This document shows positions 2 to 47,519 of a stretch of 64,000 nt of DNA, one piece after another. A program made the translations under genes and the position numbers. Location of the stretch: assembly GCF_000426465.1 (NCBI RefSeq), contig NZ_AUFK01000009.1:682001-746000 (forward strand), written 5' to 3'. The DNA comes from Epilithonimonas caeni DSM 17710. GTDB lineage: Bacteria; Bacteroidota; Bacteroidia; Flavobacteriales; Weeksellaceae. Under the pieces are notes generated by a model. The model saw nothing but the letters and a program-made list of their open reading frames with translations. It had not been told where the DNA came from and did no database searches. The first letter of the stretch is position 1. Each line of letters starts with the position of its first letter.

Positions 2-964
2 TCTTCTGCAAAGGATGAGATAGAACAGTTCCGACTAAAATTCAATGGAAAGAAAGGGATCATGAACGATTTCTATGAATCCTTGAAACAAATTCCCAAT
101 GAGCAGAAGAAAGATTTTGGACAGAAGATCAACATCTTAAGAAACTCTGTAAATGAGAAACTGGAAGAACTGAGATCTTCTTCGGAAAGTAAAATGACCC
201 TTGAAAAAGAAGACCTTACAAGACCTGCTTTTCCTTTGGAATTAGGTTCTCGTCATCCAATCAACCTTGTTAAAAATAAAATCATTGACATCTTCAAATC
301 CATCGGTTTTGCTGTTGCAGACGGACCTGAGATTGAGGATGACTGGCATAACTTCACCGCACTTAACCTTCCGGAATATCATCCGGCGAGGGATATGCAG
401 GATACGTTCTTCATCGAGCAAGATCCTGATGTTTTACTGAGAACGCACACTTCTTCTGTACAGATCAGACATATGGAAAACAACGAACCGCCAATGAGAA
501 TCTTGTCTCCAGGACGTGTTTTCCGTAATGAAGCGGTCTCTTCCCGTTCTCATTGTATTTTCCATCAAATTGAAGGTTTGTACATCGATGAGAATGTGAG
601 CTTCGCAGACCTTAAACAAACCATTCAGTTTTTCACAACTGAGCTTTTCGGAAAATCGAAGATCAGAATGAGGCCTTCATATTTCCCTTTCACAGAGCCA
701 AGCGCAGAAGTTGATGTTTATTGGGGACTGAATTCTGAGACCGATTACAGGATCACGAAAGGAACTGGATGGCTGGAAATCATGGGTTGTGGAATGGTTG
801 ACCCTGCAGTTCTTAGAAATGTAAACATTGATCCTGACAAATTCTCAGGATACGCTTTTGGAATGGGAATCGAGAGAATCGTAATGCTTCTTTACCAAAT
901 GAGTGACATCAGAATGTTCTTTGAGAATGATATAAGAATGCTGGAGCAGTTCAAAACAATGTAA
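2..964 (+). CDS. pheS: Phenylalanyl-tRNA synthetase alpha subunit (5' end outside window)
   Basis: Charges tRNA-Phe as the catalytic subunit of the cytoplasmic alpha2-beta2 PheRS. The reading frame is open from base 2, and the residues before the first internal ATG (base 62) continue the PheS N-terminal coiled-coil arm ([10 protein letters not shown]), so base 62 is not the true start and the gene is cut by the window edge. Class II motifs are visible: motif 2 around [14 protein letters not shown] and motif 3 [10 protein letters not shown] near the C-terminus, ending ...FKTM. It is followed at once by a hairpin terminator, so it is probably the last gene of its transcript. Very confident. Confidence 0.96.
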
Positions 965-1173: not shown

Positions 1174-2907
1174 ATGAAATCAAAGAACAATCATTTACGC
1201 CCGTTGAGTTTCAAATCGAGAAAGATTGTCCATTATTTTCTTATTATCTGCATTCTTCTGATACAAGTCATTATAGGCAGTTTTTTTTACAATGAGTTCA
1301 GGAATAAAAAAAATCTGAAGTTTATAGAAAATCAATTGAATGAAATCCATTCCATCGAAAACCTGACAGATGATTCCAAGAAAGAATTGGTAAATTCCCA
1401 GGACTACTTCCAAAAATACCTTATTACCAATGACCGGAAATATTTGGAGTATTATTTCCAATCTGTTGATAAACTCACTAAAAACCTGGACAGCATCAAC
1501 AGCTATAAAAATCCAGGATTAGAAAATGTTGTCCTTCCTCAGAAACAAGATTCTTCTGAATTCAGGAAATTAAAACTTCTGGCGGATTCGACCTATCAAT
1601 TTTCTTCCAGATCAAGTTTTAAAATCCGGGAAAACAATGCTCCGACCCTTAAAAAATTTGATCTCAACAATTATAATTATGAGAAATTCAATATAGAGAC
1701 AAAGACCGTTTCTGACAGCGTGAAAAAGAAGGGGCTGTTCGGCAGGATCGGTGATGCAATAGCCGGAAAAGTTGACGTACAGAAAGAAAACACCATCATT
1801 ACAATTAAAAACGGGGGACAGACCACCGGCGAAAGGATAAAGTCTGATATGGACAGTATCATGAGGACGATCAATAACCACTACTCCAAAGAGGTCCAAA
1901 GGATACAGGTCAACATTACCAATAATAAAAACCATAATGAAAAATTTTTCAAGACCTTCAACAATCTTCTAATATACAGTAATGACCTGATGAACATCTA
2001 TGGGATGGCCATCAAAGATTCTAAGTCGGAACTTGAAAAGGAATATGAAAAACAAACTTCCAAAAGCAATCATATCAGAAACTATCTGGTTCTGGGAGCT
2101 ATGATCCTGATGTTCATTGTCTCTATATTGATCATGTTCCTGACAAGAATTGCTTTCATATATGAAAAACGGTTGAAAGTCGCTAATGACCAGATCAAAG
2201 AAAACCTTAATTTCAAAAATAGAATTTTGGGCATGCTAAGTCATGAACTCAGGTCCCCACTCAAGATCATTGGAATTTTTATCAACAGAATTAATAAAAA
2301 AACCACAGACGAAAGTATAAAAGAATATCTAAAATCGATAAGCTTTACAAATAATACCCTATTGATGCAGGCTAATCAAATTTTGGAATATACAAAAAAC
2401 CAACAAGTTGAAAACAAACTAATCCCGACAGTTTTTAATATTAGCGATGAAATAGATTCTATCCTCACCTCCATAGAGCCTTATATCGAAACCAGAAATA
2501 ATAAATTTGTCATTAACAAAAATATTGACCCCAGTATCGTCGTTTATTCTGATAATACAAAGATCAATCAGGTTTTTATGAATATCCTTGGAAATGCCAA
2601 CAAGTTTACCGAGAACGGACAGATAACCGTAGATACCAAAACAGAATCTATAGATGAAAATACAATTTCGCTAGTTACAAAAATAACAGACACAGGGGCG
2701 GGAATCTCAGAATCTGACCTTGAGAAAATATTTGAACCCTACTATCAAGGTGTACTGTCTGAAAATGTAGAAAATCTGGGAGCAGGCCTAGGACTAAGTC
2801 TTTGTAAGGAAATTATAGAATTGTACTCTGGAAAAATATCTGTAGATAGCAAACTGAATCACGGGACAACAGTAAGCTTTTCTGTTAATTTGAAAATCAA
2901 TAAATGA
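1174..2907 (+). CDS. Membrane sensor histidine kinase
   Basis: Hybrid-free sensor kinase of 577 residues. TM1 lies at about residues 17-39, a mostly helical extracytoplasmic region of about 260 residues follows, and TM2 is at about 303-328. Then come HisKA with the phospho-acceptor H357 in MLSHELRSPLK, the N box around NILGNANKF (about 468-476), G1 DTGAGIS and G2 GAGLGLSL. The extracytoplasmic region is not a domain I can name; it is long and coiled-coil-like (CHASE3-like at best). The stop overlaps the next gene by 4 bp (ATGA), so kinase and regulator are translationally coupled and are probably cognate. The start ATG is preceded by AGCACAAAT, the same leader type as in the mini-ORF array at 3.7-4.1 kb. 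Confidence 0.9.
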   Translation: MKSKNNHLRPLSFKSRKIVHYFLIICILLIQVIIGSFFYNEFRNKKNLKFIENQLNEIHSIENLTDDSKKELVNSQDYFQKYLITNDRKYLEYYFQSVDKLTKNLDSINSYKNPGLENVVLPQKQDSSEFRKLKLLADSTYQFSSRSSFKIRENNAPTLKKFDLNNYNYEKFNIETKTVSDSVKKKGLFGRIGDAIAGKVDVQKENTIITIKNGGQTTGERIKSDMDSIMRTINNHYSKEVQRIQVNITNNKNHNEKFFKTFNNLLIYSNDLMNIYGMAIKDSKSELEKEYEKQTSKSNHIRNYLVLGAMILMFIVSILIMFLTRIAFIYEKRLKVANDQIKENLNFKNRILGMLSHELRSPLKIIGIFINRINKKTTDESIKEYLKSISFTNNTLLMQANQILEYTKNQQVENKLIPTVFNISDEIDSILTSIEPYIETRNNKFVINKNIDPSIVVYSDNTKINQVFMNILGNANKFTENGQITVDTKTESIDENTISLVTKITDTGAGISESDLEKIFEPYYQGVLSENVENLGAGLGLSLCKEIIELYSGKISVDSKLNHGTTVSFSVNLKINK

Positions 2908-3545: not shown

Positions 3546-3578
3546 ATTTTTAGACGCTTAACTACTTATATAAAAAAC

Positions 3579-3608
3579 AAAGGTTGATCATGAAGGTCAA
3601 CCTTTTTT
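3579..3608 (+). terminator. Terminator after the kinase/regulator operon
   Basis: AAAGGTTGA pairs with TCAACCTTT across a 9-nt loop and is followed by a T run. It abuts the palindrome at 3607. Confidence 0.8.
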
Positions 3609-3626
3609 GTAGATAAATATCTACAA
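3607..3626. promoter_or_regulatory. 20-bp palindrome TTGTAGATA-aa-TATCTACAA (operator candidate)
   Basis: A perfect 9-bp inverted repeat around two central bases. The same 20-bp architecture, TTGTAGAT-aaaa-ATCTACAA, recurs at 27709-27728, each time just beyond a terminator and upstream of the next transcription unit. It lies about 55 bp upstream of a TAAATTTG promoter element. The role as a transcription factor site, possibly for the adjacent NarL regulator, is inference. Confidence 0.5.
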
Positions 3627-3679
3627 GTTTAGCGATATATATCTAACACTTTTATAGTTACCCTAATTCTGTATGTTAG

Positions 3680-3687
3680 TAAATTTG
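3680..3687 (+). promoter_or_regulatory. Candidate TAnnTTTG promoter element
   Basis: TAAATTTG matches the Bacteroidetes -7 consensus. No clear TTG -33 box is seen at the usual spacing. If used, it would give a transcript from about 3692 with more than 400 nt before the first sizeable gene at 4128, covering the mini-ORF array and both hairpins. Confidence 0.4.
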
Positions 3688-3932
3688 TACCAACAAAAAG
3701 AGCTAATTATAATTGTTAAAAAAAATCGAAAATAGGGTTCTAAAAGCACAAATGATGAATTACTAATATCGAAAATAAAAACACAAATGATGAAATTTTG
3801 AGTAATTATTACAATTAAAAAAGCACAAAGATTCTAGAAACACAGGTGATGAAATCTTAAGTATAAGTTATATGATCGAAAGGTTTTATAATTTTTACTA
3901 AAAACACAAAAACACATTCATAAACACTATTG

Positions 3933-4040
3933 ATGAAAATCAAGTATCCTTTAACAGAGCCTTTTGGCTCTGTAAGGGATATAAAAACACAATTTGAAGG
4001 AAAAATCTCAAAAACACAAATGATGAATTTCCAAAAATAA
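3933..4040 (+). CDS. Possible 35-residue peptide, unknown
   Basis: The longest plus-strand frame in the array starts at ATG 3933 (MKIKYPLTEPFGSVRD...) and ends with TAA at 4040, running in frame through the later MMNFQK start. A diverged copy downstream, from about 4070, reads KYQITESFDSVND in the aligned frame but is separated from its ATG by a net one-base shift. About 8 of 15 aligned residues match. The conserved part coincides with a hairpin whose pairing is kept by changes that alter the amino acids, so coding is uncertain. No signal peptide or known motif. Confidence 0.25.
   Translation: MKIKYPLTEPFGSVRDIKTQFEGKISKTQMMNFQK
3944..3982 (+). other. Hairpin A (ACAGAGCC-TTTT-GGCTCTGT core)
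   Basis: An 8-bp perfect core with a TTTT loop, extended outward by about 9 more pairs (with G-T wobbles) after one bulged A; GTATCC pairs with GGGATAT. There is no T run after it, so it is not an ordinary terminator. It is related to hairpin B at 4072-4110. Confidence 0.55.
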
Positions 4041-4071
4041 AGATTCTTAAAACACAATTATGAAATCAAAA

Positions 4072-4110
4072 GTATCAGATTACAGAGTCTTTTGACTCTG
4101 TAAATGATAC
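4072..4110 (+). other. Hairpin B (ACAGAGTC-TTTT-GACTCTGT core)
   Basis: Same design as hairpin A: an 8-bp core with a TTTT loop plus an outer GTATCA/TGATAC stem across a small internal loop. Compared with A, one core C-G pair is T-A, so pairing is kept. It ends 17 bp before the ATG of the membrane-protein gene at 4128, where it could influence that gene's translation (inference). Confidence 0.5.
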
Positions 4111-4127
4111 TGATAACAAATTGAAAA

Positions 4128-4583
4128 ATGAAAATAGATAACCGAAAATCAATCGCTATGGCGATGTATGGCTTTCTTTTTATTATTCTATTGGATATTG
4201 TATTTCTGTTGTTTGGGAAAAAAATTTTCGCCATTGATAATATCGTTTTGTATAGTTTTAGCATAGCTATCTTCATATTATGCATTTGGAGAATAACAAC
4301 ACTTAAGAGTTTTTCTTTGGATGTTTCTGAACAGATCATTTCTGTAAAATACAGTCACCCGCTTTCTAGGGTTCGCAGACCTGTTTTAGAAGTATCCCTA
4401 TACAAGGTTGTTTCTATGAATACAGAAAAGGCTATTCTACACCATATAATGGTCATAGGAATCCTCACTAAAAAGGGAATAAGGAATTTTTATTATAGAA
4501 TAGGGAATCTTCCTTCAAATGAAGCAGAAAAACTAAAAAGAATTAAAGACCTGATCACAACTTATAATAAGGTCAAATCATAA
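4128..4583 (+). CDS. Small two-TM membrane protein, unknown
   Basis: Protein of 151 residues with two N-terminal hydrophobic segments (about 9-30 and 38-56) and a soluble, probably cytoplasmic, basic C-terminal domain of about 95 residues. The layout resembles small membrane proteins with a PH-like (bPH) domain, but no diagnostic motif is visible, so that is only a guess. The ATG at 4128 lies in an A-rich leader (AAATTGAAAA). It follows the mini-ORF/hairpin stretch and may be on the same transcript. A strong terminator follows. Confidence 0.65.
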   Translation: MKIDNRKSIAMAMYGFLFIILLDIVFLLFGKKIFAIDNIVLYSFSIAIFILCIWRITTLKSFSLDVSEQIISVKYSHPLSRVRRPVLEVSLYKVVSMNTEKAILHHIMVIGILTKKGIRNFYYRIGNLPSNEAEKLKRIKDLITTYNKVKS

Positions 4584-4627
4584 GAAACACCAAAAAACAG
4601 ATAATTATTTAATTTTTAACCTTGATG

Positions 4628-4662
4628 AAATCCTGTGAATTAATTTTCACAGGATTTTTTTT
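4628..4662 (+). terminator. Terminator after the small membrane-protein gene
   Basis: AATCCTGTGAA pairs with TTCACAGGATT (11 bp) across a TTAATT loop and is followed by eight T. It is nearly a copy of the pheS terminator. Confidence 0.85.
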
Positions 4663-11722: not shown

Positions 11723-12832
11723 ATGAGATTTAGGAATTCTTTAAAAATCAATTGGTTATCTGTTACTGCATCACTCTTATTGGTAGGTGTTGTAGGCGGA
11801 GTTGTCTTACTTTTCGAGTTTTATACGGATGATGTTTATTTCAAAACCAAGGACTTCAATTATTTCCTGATATTTACTTTATGGTTTGTATTCATTCTCA
11901 ACTATTTTGTCTTAGAGTTTCTGTTCAGCTTTTATAGCAAAAATCAGATCAGGAGGATCACAAATATTCTTCCCGAAGATATTATCCATGATTTTGATAC
12001 AGACATTGGATTCAAGGAACTTGGGGAAAAAGTTCACGAGATGAATCAGAAAAATGCCGAGATCGATATGATGAAAGAGATGGAAGACTATCGGAAAGAA
12101 TATATCGGAAATGTTTCCCATGAACTGAAAACTCCATTATTTTCGATTCAAGGTTATATAGAAACATTGCGGGAAGGCGGTGTGGAAGACCTTAATATAA
12201 GAGACAAATATCTTGAAAGAATTGATAAGTCTGTTGAGCGACTCCTTAATATCGTAAAGGACCTGGATATGATCAATCGTTTTGAAGCCGGACAAATCGA
12301 GCTCAAATATTCTACCTTTGATATTAATTATTTGATTCAGGAAGTTTTCGACCTTCTGGAAATGGATGCCGAAAAACATTCTATGACAATGCAGCTACAG
12401 ACCACCCAATCTCAACTTTTTGTTTTTGCAGACAAGCAAAGGATCTCCCAGGTCTTGATCAACCTAATTTCTAATGCCGTGAAATATGCCAATCGAGAAG
12501 AGGCGCAGATCATTGTTTCAACACGGGAAGGAATGAAAAGCATACACATCTCTGTGGAAGACAATGGAATGGGAATCAAGCCAGAAAATCTGCCGAGAAT
12601 CTTTGAACGCTTCTATCGTGTAGAATCCAGTAGAAACAGGAAAGAAGGCGGTTCAGGTCTTGGTCTCGCTATAGTGAAACATATTATGGAGGCCCATAAA
12701 CAGAGTATTTCTGTAGAAAGTGTTTATCTTTCCGGAACAAAATTCAAATTCAAATTATCGAAACCTTTCCTGGAAAAATCAAAAAAAACAAACTCTCTTT
12801 TATACATCGATAGACATCAACCGATGCGCTGA
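11723..12832 (+). CDS. PhoR-like membrane histidine kinase
   Basis: Kinase of 369 residues. Two N-terminal TM segments (about 10-30 and 45-68) are joined by only a short loop, so there is no extracytoplasmic sensor domain. A cytoplasmic linker leads to HisKA with H133 (YIGNVSHELKTPLFS), the N box LINLISNAVKYA, G1 EDNGMGIKPE and G2 GGSGLGLAIVKH. It is the likely partner of the PhoB-like regulator just upstream. PhoR-type kinases without a periplasmic domain sense through accessory proteins in other bacteria; whether that holds here is unknown. Confidence 0.92.
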   Translation: MRFRNSLKINWLSVTASLLLVGVVGGVVLLFEFYTDDVYFKTKDFNYFLIFTLWFVFILNYFVLEFLFSFYSKNQIRRITNILPEDIIHDFDTDIGFKELGEKVHEMNQKNAEIDMMKEMEDYRKEYIGNVSHELKTPLFSIQGYIETLREGGVEDLNIRDKYLERIDKSVERLLNIVKDLDMINRFEAGQIELKYSTFDINYLIQEVFDLLEMDAEKHSMTMQLQTTQSQLFVFADKQRISQVLINLISNAVKYANREEAQIIVSTREGMKSIHISVEDNGMGIKPENLPRIFERFYRVESSRNRKEGGSGLGLAIVKHIMEAHKQSISVESVYLSGTKFKFKLSKPFLEKSKKTNSLLYIDRHQPMR

Positions 12833-47162: not shown

Positions 47163-47519
47163 TTACCAACGACTTCCGCCGCCTCTGTTTCCACCACCGT
47201 TTCCGTAGTTTCCACCGCCTCTGTTTCCACCGCCGTAACCTCCGCCACGGTTGTTATCGAAAGAACGTCTTGGTTTTTCTTCTTTTGGTCTTGCTTCTGT
47301 TACGTTTAGAGCTTTCCCATTGAATTCTTTTTGGTTAAGCGCTTCAATAGCCTGTTGCCCTTCAGCGTCTCCCATTTCTACGAAACCAAATCCCTTTGAT
47401 CTCCCAGTTTCTCTGTCAGTAATGATCTTAAGAGAAGAAACTTCTCCAAAACCTTCGAATAATTCTTGCAATTGATCTTCTCTAGTTGCGTAATTGATGT
47501 TTGAAACAAAAATGTTCAT
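47163..47519 (-). CDS. RRM RNA-binding protein with Gly-rich tail
   Basis: Protein of 118 residues: one RNA recognition motif (about 1-80) with RNP2 IFVSNI and RNP1 KGFGFVEM, then an RGG-like tail (GGGYGGGNRGGGNYGNGGG) of about 30 residues. This is the bacterial Rbp type, abundant in Bacteroidetes and cyanobacteria and thought to act as an RNA chaperone or post-transcriptional regulator. Bacteroidetes lack Hfq in many lineages, so such RRM proteins are candidates for that role (established discussion, not shown here). Confidence 0.93.
   Translation of the reverse strand: MNIFVSNINYATREDQLQELFEGFGEVSSLKIITDRETGRSKGFGFVEMGDAEGQQAIEALNQKEFNGKALNVTEARPKEEKPRRSFDNNRGGGYGGGNRGGGNYGNGGGNRGGGSRW

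Follow-up and report, generated by a model that had tools for sequence, protein, structure and literature searches.

In the GacS/GacA-RsmY/Z (CsrB/C) pathways, the output of a LuxR-type two-component system is a non-coding RNA with repeated motifs and hairpins, which titrates the protein CsrA. In Caulobacter crescentus, the RNA CrfA sequesters the sibling sRNAs SisA-D via a shared seed (PMC12559287). SisA-D repress mRNAs near the start codon, the action of CrfA is Hfq-mediated, and its transcriptional control was reported as undetermined (PMC12559287). QrrX/Qrr in Vibrio is cited in that paper as another sponge case (PMC12559287). Among the Bacteroidota, FopS/GibS of Bacteroides thetaiotaomicron are sibling sRNAs encoded in several copies that have one single-stranded seed in common ahead of the terminator, and FopS pairs with the translation initiation regions of surface-protein mRNAs with the involvement of an RRM protein (PMC11697453). 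Rfp18 of Flavobacterium psychrophilum is a conserved flavobacterial sRNA with secreted-protein mRNA targets (PMC9723704).

The locus described here lies in a 64,000-nucleotide stretch of the genome of Epilithonimonas caeni DSM 17710, which we analyzed as a whole and refer to as the window. We consider it likely that the window encodes a multi-site sponge RNA, driven by a two-component system, that titrates a group of sibling sRNAs. The sites, seeds, terminators, operator, promoter geometry, conservation and co-occurrence on which this reading draws were all taken directly from sequence. The features of the locus are as follows.

1174-2907, plus strand: sensor histidine kinase (HisKA and HATPase_c by Pfam, N-terminal sensor region), with a weak seed-complementary site at the start codon
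2904-3545, plus strand: LuxR/NarL-type response regulator (Response_reg and GerE by Pfam), with orthologues in named Weeksellaceae
3578-3610, plus strand: hairpin followed by a T run (inverted repeat in the sequence), the likely end of the kinase-regulator mRNA
3609-3648, no strand assigned: twin-palindrome operator, GTAGATAAATATCTAC then GCGATATATATCTA, putative binding site of the response regulator (single match in the own genome; conservation)
3680-3687, plus strand: TAAATTTG, Flavobacteriia-type -7 box (TAnnTTTG) situated 34 bp past the operator, predicted array promoter
3742-4110, plus strand: putative sponge array, seed-complementary sites alternating with hairpins (repeats, fold, duplex energies)
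3744-3760, plus strand: putative sRNA-binding site 1, AAGCACAAATGATGAAT, duplex -22.0 kcal/mol
3779-3795, plus strand: putative sRNA-binding site 2, AAACACAAATGATGAAA, duplex -22.9 kcal/mol
3838-3854, plus strand: putative sRNA-binding site 3, AAACACAGGTGATGAAA, with G-U wobbles, duplex -22.6 kcal/mol
3862-3898, plus strand: hairpin between sites, -6.8 kcal/mol
3922-3938, plus strand: putative sRNA-binding site 4, AAACACTATTGATGAAA, weaker, duplex -15.8 kcal/mol
3943-3981, plus strand: hairpin GTATCC..ACAGAGCC-TTTT-GGCTCTGT..GGGATA, -23.0 kcal/mol
3983-4006, plus strand: degenerate site AAAAACACAATTTGAAGG, duplex -15.5 kcal/mol
4012-4028, plus strand: putative sRNA-binding site 5, AAACACAAATGATGAAT, duplex -22.1 kcal/mol
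4047-4070, plus strand: degenerate site AAAACACAATTATGAAATC, duplex -12.1 kcal/mol
4072-4110, plus strand: hairpin GTATCAGATTACAGAGTC-TTTT-GACTCTGTAAATGATAC, -18.5 kcal/mol
4128-4583, plus strand: small membrane protein of 151 aa, no Pfam or NCBIfam match
4627-4658, plus strand: intrinsic terminator after the membrane-protein gene

The array lies in a gene-less stretch between the hairpin with the T run and the gene of the 151-aa membrane protein. The preliminary description had pointed to a repeated leader motif at this place, and the repeat is real: AAACACAAATGATGAAA, with 3 mismatches allowed, has five copies here (starts at 3744, 3779, 3838, 3922, and 4012) that span 3744-4028 in a single orientation, compared with a mean of 0.03 copies expected by chance in dinucleotide shuffles of the intergenic region. 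In this intergenic scan (≤3 mismatches) all five were on the plus strand and none was on the reverse strand. Duplex energies indicated further, weaker copies at 3818, 3983, and 4047. The repeated 17-nt site AAACACAAATGATGAAA does not contain the GGA motif of the CsrA/RsmA kind, an Rfam search of the array region gave no match beyond chance level, and a plasmid search for the repeat gave no match.

Elsewhere in the genome the motif led to a group of sRNA-like loci. The exact 17-mer AAAACACAAATGATGAA occurred 8 times in the 4.1-Mb genome (0 for a reversed control pattern), with 2 copies in the array, 1 at the start codon of a 198-aa protein, and 5 elsewhere. At five unlinked loci of this genome, the reverse complement TTTCATCATTTGTGTTTTT was found immediately 5' of an intrinsic terminator; the shared seed UUUCAUCAUUUGUGUUU of these loci, which is the reverse complement of the array motif, was unpaired in the predicted fold. 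By their sequence, the five terminator-ended loci look like sibling sRNAs. Because the reverse complement of the motif is the seed of sRNA-like loci, conserved in the family, we interpret the array as their putative multi-site pairing partner. Five orthologous sRNA families (A to E) were recognized across the genomes of the genus, with differing flanks and terminator sequences, and the terminator stems of families B-E carried compensated changes. Since the sRNA set was picked by the exact seed, the invariance of the seed in these alignments arises by construction. For families A and B, the predicted transcript is about 100 nt long and consists of a 5' hairpin, an unpaired U-rich seed, and the terminator. 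Among the fetched loci, a terminator followed the seed on its own strand in 67 of 99 exact instances, compared with 2 of 99 on the other side. A TAnnTTTG box was present within 110 bp in 25 of the 67 terminator-positive loci; in some loci it was located just upstream of the seed, at a distance of 4 bp in family C. An Rfam search with the five sRNA loci (E 0.5) returned only a tRNA and two chance-level hits, in a copy of Rfam that may lack FopS. A mobile or REP-like repeat was considered as the origin of the motif and rejected because the hairpins differ among the sRNA loci and the 17-mer alone is common to them.

The seed is widespread within the family and scarce outside it. With at most one mismatch, the 17-mer was found in all 24 genomes of the genus (the control gave 0 in nearly all), and exact copies were found in 248 of 297 family genomes and 22 of 33 genera (control 0). 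Beyond the family, 3 of about 247 genomes from the same order carried it. Several genera had the seed without an orthologous regulator, and the sRNAs would therefore have roles beyond the array locus. In other genera (L164-L171, L174), two seed-bearing sRNA genes were often arranged in tandem, and several of those in Chryseobacterium had GGCCTCC-type terminators. Family C (L042 and its orthologues) displayed a conserved CTTACCAAATGATAAG inverted repeat about 40 bp upstream of the seed and upstream of the sRNA promoter, which is likely a regulator site. A viral contig from a phage or prophage (IMGVR_UViG_2645727825_000001, L322; match at 11918-11935, minus strand) had the seed followed by a terminator and is a possible phage-borne member of the sRNA family.

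Two properties expected of a sponge, complementarity to a seed and a partner made up of sibling sRNAs, were found in the sequence: the array sites complement five sRNA loci, with duplexes down to -22.9 kcal/mol and none in shuffles, and the predicted partner comprises five orthologous, terminator-ended loci with a common 17-nt seed. Duplexes between seed and array reached -22 to -23 kcal/mol at four sites and -15 kcal/mol or lower at six. At a threshold of -20 kcal/mol, 4 array sites qualified, compared with 0 in shuffled arrays and 0 on the antisense strand. The folding energy of the array stretch was better than that of 100 of 100 shuffles (z = -7.3), far above chance because of the hairpins that separate the sites, and in the predicted fold the sites were 0.69 unpaired compared with 0.44 elsewhere. 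Hairpins 3943-3981 and 4072-4110 are diverged copies of one repeat (D2), and they differ by compensated C-G to T-A and C-G to A-T changes.

The preliminary description had instead taken the stretch for an array of mini-ORFs, left by a small gene that was duplicated repeatedly and then decayed, or translated as leader peptides. The short frames noted there do exist (lengths of 3-11 codons, plus a 35-codon frame at 3933), and the sites do set ATGs. However, over about 90 sites the frames that follow the ATG had medians of 7.5, 6, and 8 codons in the three reading frames, which are thus equal in length; the longest frames show no conserved peptide, and no coding signal was found in the mini-ORFs. 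Over 190 distinct sites, the conserved block was exactly 17 nt long and flanked by random sequence, and the site reappears as the reverse complement of an sRNA seed, which argues against both a decayed gene and translated leaders. We therefore regard both versions of this reading as very improbable.

Conservation of the array was assessed at orthologous loci gathered via the orthologues of the response regulator. Among the 79 regulator orthologues with downstream sequence, 68 had a same-strand site within 1 kb downstream and 39 had at least 2 sites, compared with 1 on the opposite strand and 0 in a control kilobase of the same loci; at the other 11 there was no site within 3 mismatches. The preliminary description had proposed to compare motif and spacing in relatives, and the motif proved to be conserved (68/79), whereas the spacing was not rigidly so. 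Array loci held from 1 to 13 or more sites, some arrays being single-site. Most genomes of the genus had 1-13 same-strand sites between the regulator and the homologue of the 4128 gene (about 0.05 in shuffles), and the array of Chryseobacterium sp. FH1 (G010) had 13 to 14. In genus g9 the regulator and the operator were present, and the array and the seed were both absent from the genomes searched, which we therefore read as co-loss rather than covariation. A compensatory pair of seed and site changes was looked for in other genera and none was found, the seed being nearly invariant. The substitution spectrum in the array sites does not clearly favor changes that preserve G-U pairing.

In most relatives the array was a free-standing putative ncRNA unit with a promoter of its own, located downstream of an orthologous LuxR-type response regulator, and, in those inspected, ended in its own terminator. 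Free-standing array units with their own promoter and terminator were found in Chryseobacterium, Elizabethkingia, and two further genera (L294, L298), and at one Chryseobacterium locus (L188) there was no plus-strand ORF of 60 aa between regulator and terminator. The array is conserved with the regulator and not with the downstream gene. This bears on a different reading, in which the array is a cis-regulatory 5' leader, bound by the sibling sRNAs to regulate the 4128 gene, and titration is incidental. Of the 24 genus genomes, 19 encode the 4128 protein, some of them with paralogues, and in most of the 19 its gene is just downstream of the array. In the window there is no terminator between array and gene; the gene is probably read through from the array RNA, and a cis effect on 4128 is therefore possible. 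At two loci (L003 and L008), the gene start itself bears a AAACACAAATG-like sequence, although at these same loci a T-rich, terminator-like hairpin closes the array ahead of the gene. In Chryseobacterium, Elizabethkingia, and other genera, by contrast, a terminator of its own closes the array, often with a convergent gene next to it, and no 4128 homologue was seen there. We consider it unlikely that regulation in cis is the main function of the array, and we retain the sponge as the preferred reading.

The best NCBIfam scores of the response regulator were to FimZ and UvrY/SirA/GacA, both below cut-off, and it is 97% identical to the regulator of E. hungarica. The twin palindrome upstream of arrays consists of GTAGATAAATATCTAC and, about 22 bp further on, GATATATATC. 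It was conserved before most arrays and had a single match in the own genome, at the array (control 0). In 15 genomes from eight genera, operator matches were located at arrays or, in g9, ahead of the glycosyltransferase-like gene that immediately follows the regulator. In all 33 loci with an exact TAnnTTTG box, the distance from the end of the operator to the box was 33 or 34 bp, and loci without one mostly had a TTACTTTG-like box at the same place. The operator is also kept by two arrays that are not next to the regulator (L175 in G033 and L172 in G274); behind its regulator, G274 possesses two more operator-array units in tandem. These comparisons are strong evidence for the predicted control of the array by the regulator, with the putative operator assigned by conservation. 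They also support the suggestion in the preliminary description that a structured RNA is transcribed from TAAATTTG at 3680 under the adjacent regulator, for which the conserved operator, its 33/34-bp spacing, and its retention at regulator-unlinked arrays all speak. Overall, that description is partly supported: control by the regulator is supported and the mini-ORF interpretation is wrong.

At three loci (L264 and L265 in g9, L299 in g4), a gene of glycosyltransferase type (GT2/HmsR-like by eye) comes immediately after the orthologous regulator and its operator-like palindromes. The g4 genome that was examined (L299) has this gene behind the regulator and likewise lacks an array there. The arrangement suggests surface polysaccharide as an ancestral or alternative output of the regulator.

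The seed is also predicted to pair with gene starts. The start codons of five genes outside the window (L036, L039, L046, L048, L049) pair with it at -20 to -27 kcal/mol by prediction, and some of the predicted target genes have signal-peptide-like starts. The predicted targets include signal-peptide surface proteins and a LytTR regulator. For the leucine-rich-repeat gene (L039), the same start site was present in two other species (L094, L124). As the preliminary description had noticed, the start of the kinase gene (1174) resembles the motif: its duplex with the seed has -13.5 kcal/mol, which ranks second among 50 window genes (median -7.5). This site is much weaker than the array sites or those of the best target genes (-20 to -27 kcal/mol); it would allow feedback and is not strong evidence for it. 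At another locus (L147, about 303-382, minus strand), a gene start displayed two near-perfect sites 63 bp apart with a third, degenerate one between them, and a signal-peptide protein was encoded downstream. In L102, L111, L112, L128, L142, and L173, a long coding frame holds a conserved pair of motif copies with a separation of about 630 bp; the gene looks like a mobilisation relaxase by sequence reading, and the pairs were treated as coincidental.

Hfq (PF17209) was absent from 35 genomes of the family, including that of the strain, and control profiles matched. A different RNA-binding protein is encoded in the window.

47163-47519, minus strand: RRM-domain protein of 118 aa with a glycine-rich tail (PF00076 match at genome C1:729307-729513)

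This protein is RbpB-like in kind and is a candidate RNA chaperone of the sRNA network. Presence of RRM and presence of the seed co-occur by genus (11/2/3/6, Fisher p = 0.026, not corrected for phylogeny). The co-occurrence and the presence of the gene in the window would also fit a reading in which the repeats are binding sites for a protein such as the RRM protein, or ribosome decoys, while the seeds act on mRNA starts only and not on the array; the sites moreover hold ATGATG in an A-rich context that resembles a Flavobacteriia translation start. Yet the strongest column of the conserved block is a C upstream of the ATG, the extent of the block is that of the seed, and the frame after the ATG is not conserved. 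Antisense complementarity to five sRNA families would be left unexplained. We find such a role of the repeats improbable, and the sponge again the better account.

Transcription, the direction of control, pairing in vivo, repression, and titration are what we infer in the following mechanism. The kinase and the LuxR-type regulator would activate the promoter at 3680 via the operator at 3609-3648. In the resulting array transcript, AAACACAAAUGAUGAAA would be present five times or more, for the most part single-stranded between hairpins, every copy being a perfect or near-perfect complement of the predicted single-stranded seed UUUCAUCAUUUGUGUUU of at least five sibling sRNAs. The sRNAs, laid out as a 5' part, a U-rich seed, and an intrinsic terminator, would repress mRNAs that have the site sequence at their start codon. 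Whenever the two-component system is active, the array would titrate the sRNAs and the target mRNAs would be released. In the present species, the array may double as the 5' leader of the small membrane-protein gene.

A broader proposition, to which we incline with less confidence than to the sponge itself, is that the family has a Gac/Rsm-like switch made from RNA alone and working without Hfq. The main genomic output of the two-component system would be a multi-site sponge that titrates family-wide, start-site-targeting sibling sRNAs. Tandem duplication would tune the number of sites (1 to 13 or more), and whole operator-array units would be copied to new loci. If this is true, the Weeksellaceae (Chryseobacterium, Elizabethkingia, Kaistella, Epilithonimonas, and relatives) run an undescribed post-transcriptional network, and, in most genomes searched, a multi-site sponge is driven by the only recognizable operator of the two-component system. 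It would supply a suggested output for a two-component system that, in many genera, has no evident protein-coding output gene alongside. Because loci naturally differ in how many sites they hold (1 to 13 or more), sponge dosage can be tested by comparison. The literature on sRNAs in Chryseobacterium, Elizabethkingia, and Riemerella, covered mostly outside subscription journals, did not yield the array-sRNA system. As far as we found, a system of array and sibling sRNAs that is present across a whole bacterial family is apparently undescribed.

Among the known systems, Rfp18 is a single sRNA from another genus that pairs via its third stem-loop and for which no array or sponge was reported (PMC9723704). 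FopS/GibS are sibling sRNAs of Bacteroidota with the seed 5' of the terminator, and the seed described here is likewise predicted to pair with translation initiation regions; however, no Rfam match was found for the sRNAs here, and a sponge array was not reported in the FopS/GibS paper (PMC11697453). With CrfA/SisA-D, the locus shares the principle of one RNA that acts on a family of sibling sRNAs via their shared seed, here as predicted from sequence. Unlike CrfA, the array has up to 13 or more tandem sites split by hairpins, is apparently under the direct control of an adjacent two-component system, and would operate without Hfq. In its predicted wiring the array resembles Gac/Rsm, in which a LuxR-type two-component system leads to a hairpin RNA with repeated motifs, here a putative one. 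The sites differ from those of Gac/Rsm in having no GGA, and the partner is a predicted RNA family instead of CsrA, so that the parallel, if true, would be one with RNA replacing CsrA in bacteria without Hfq.
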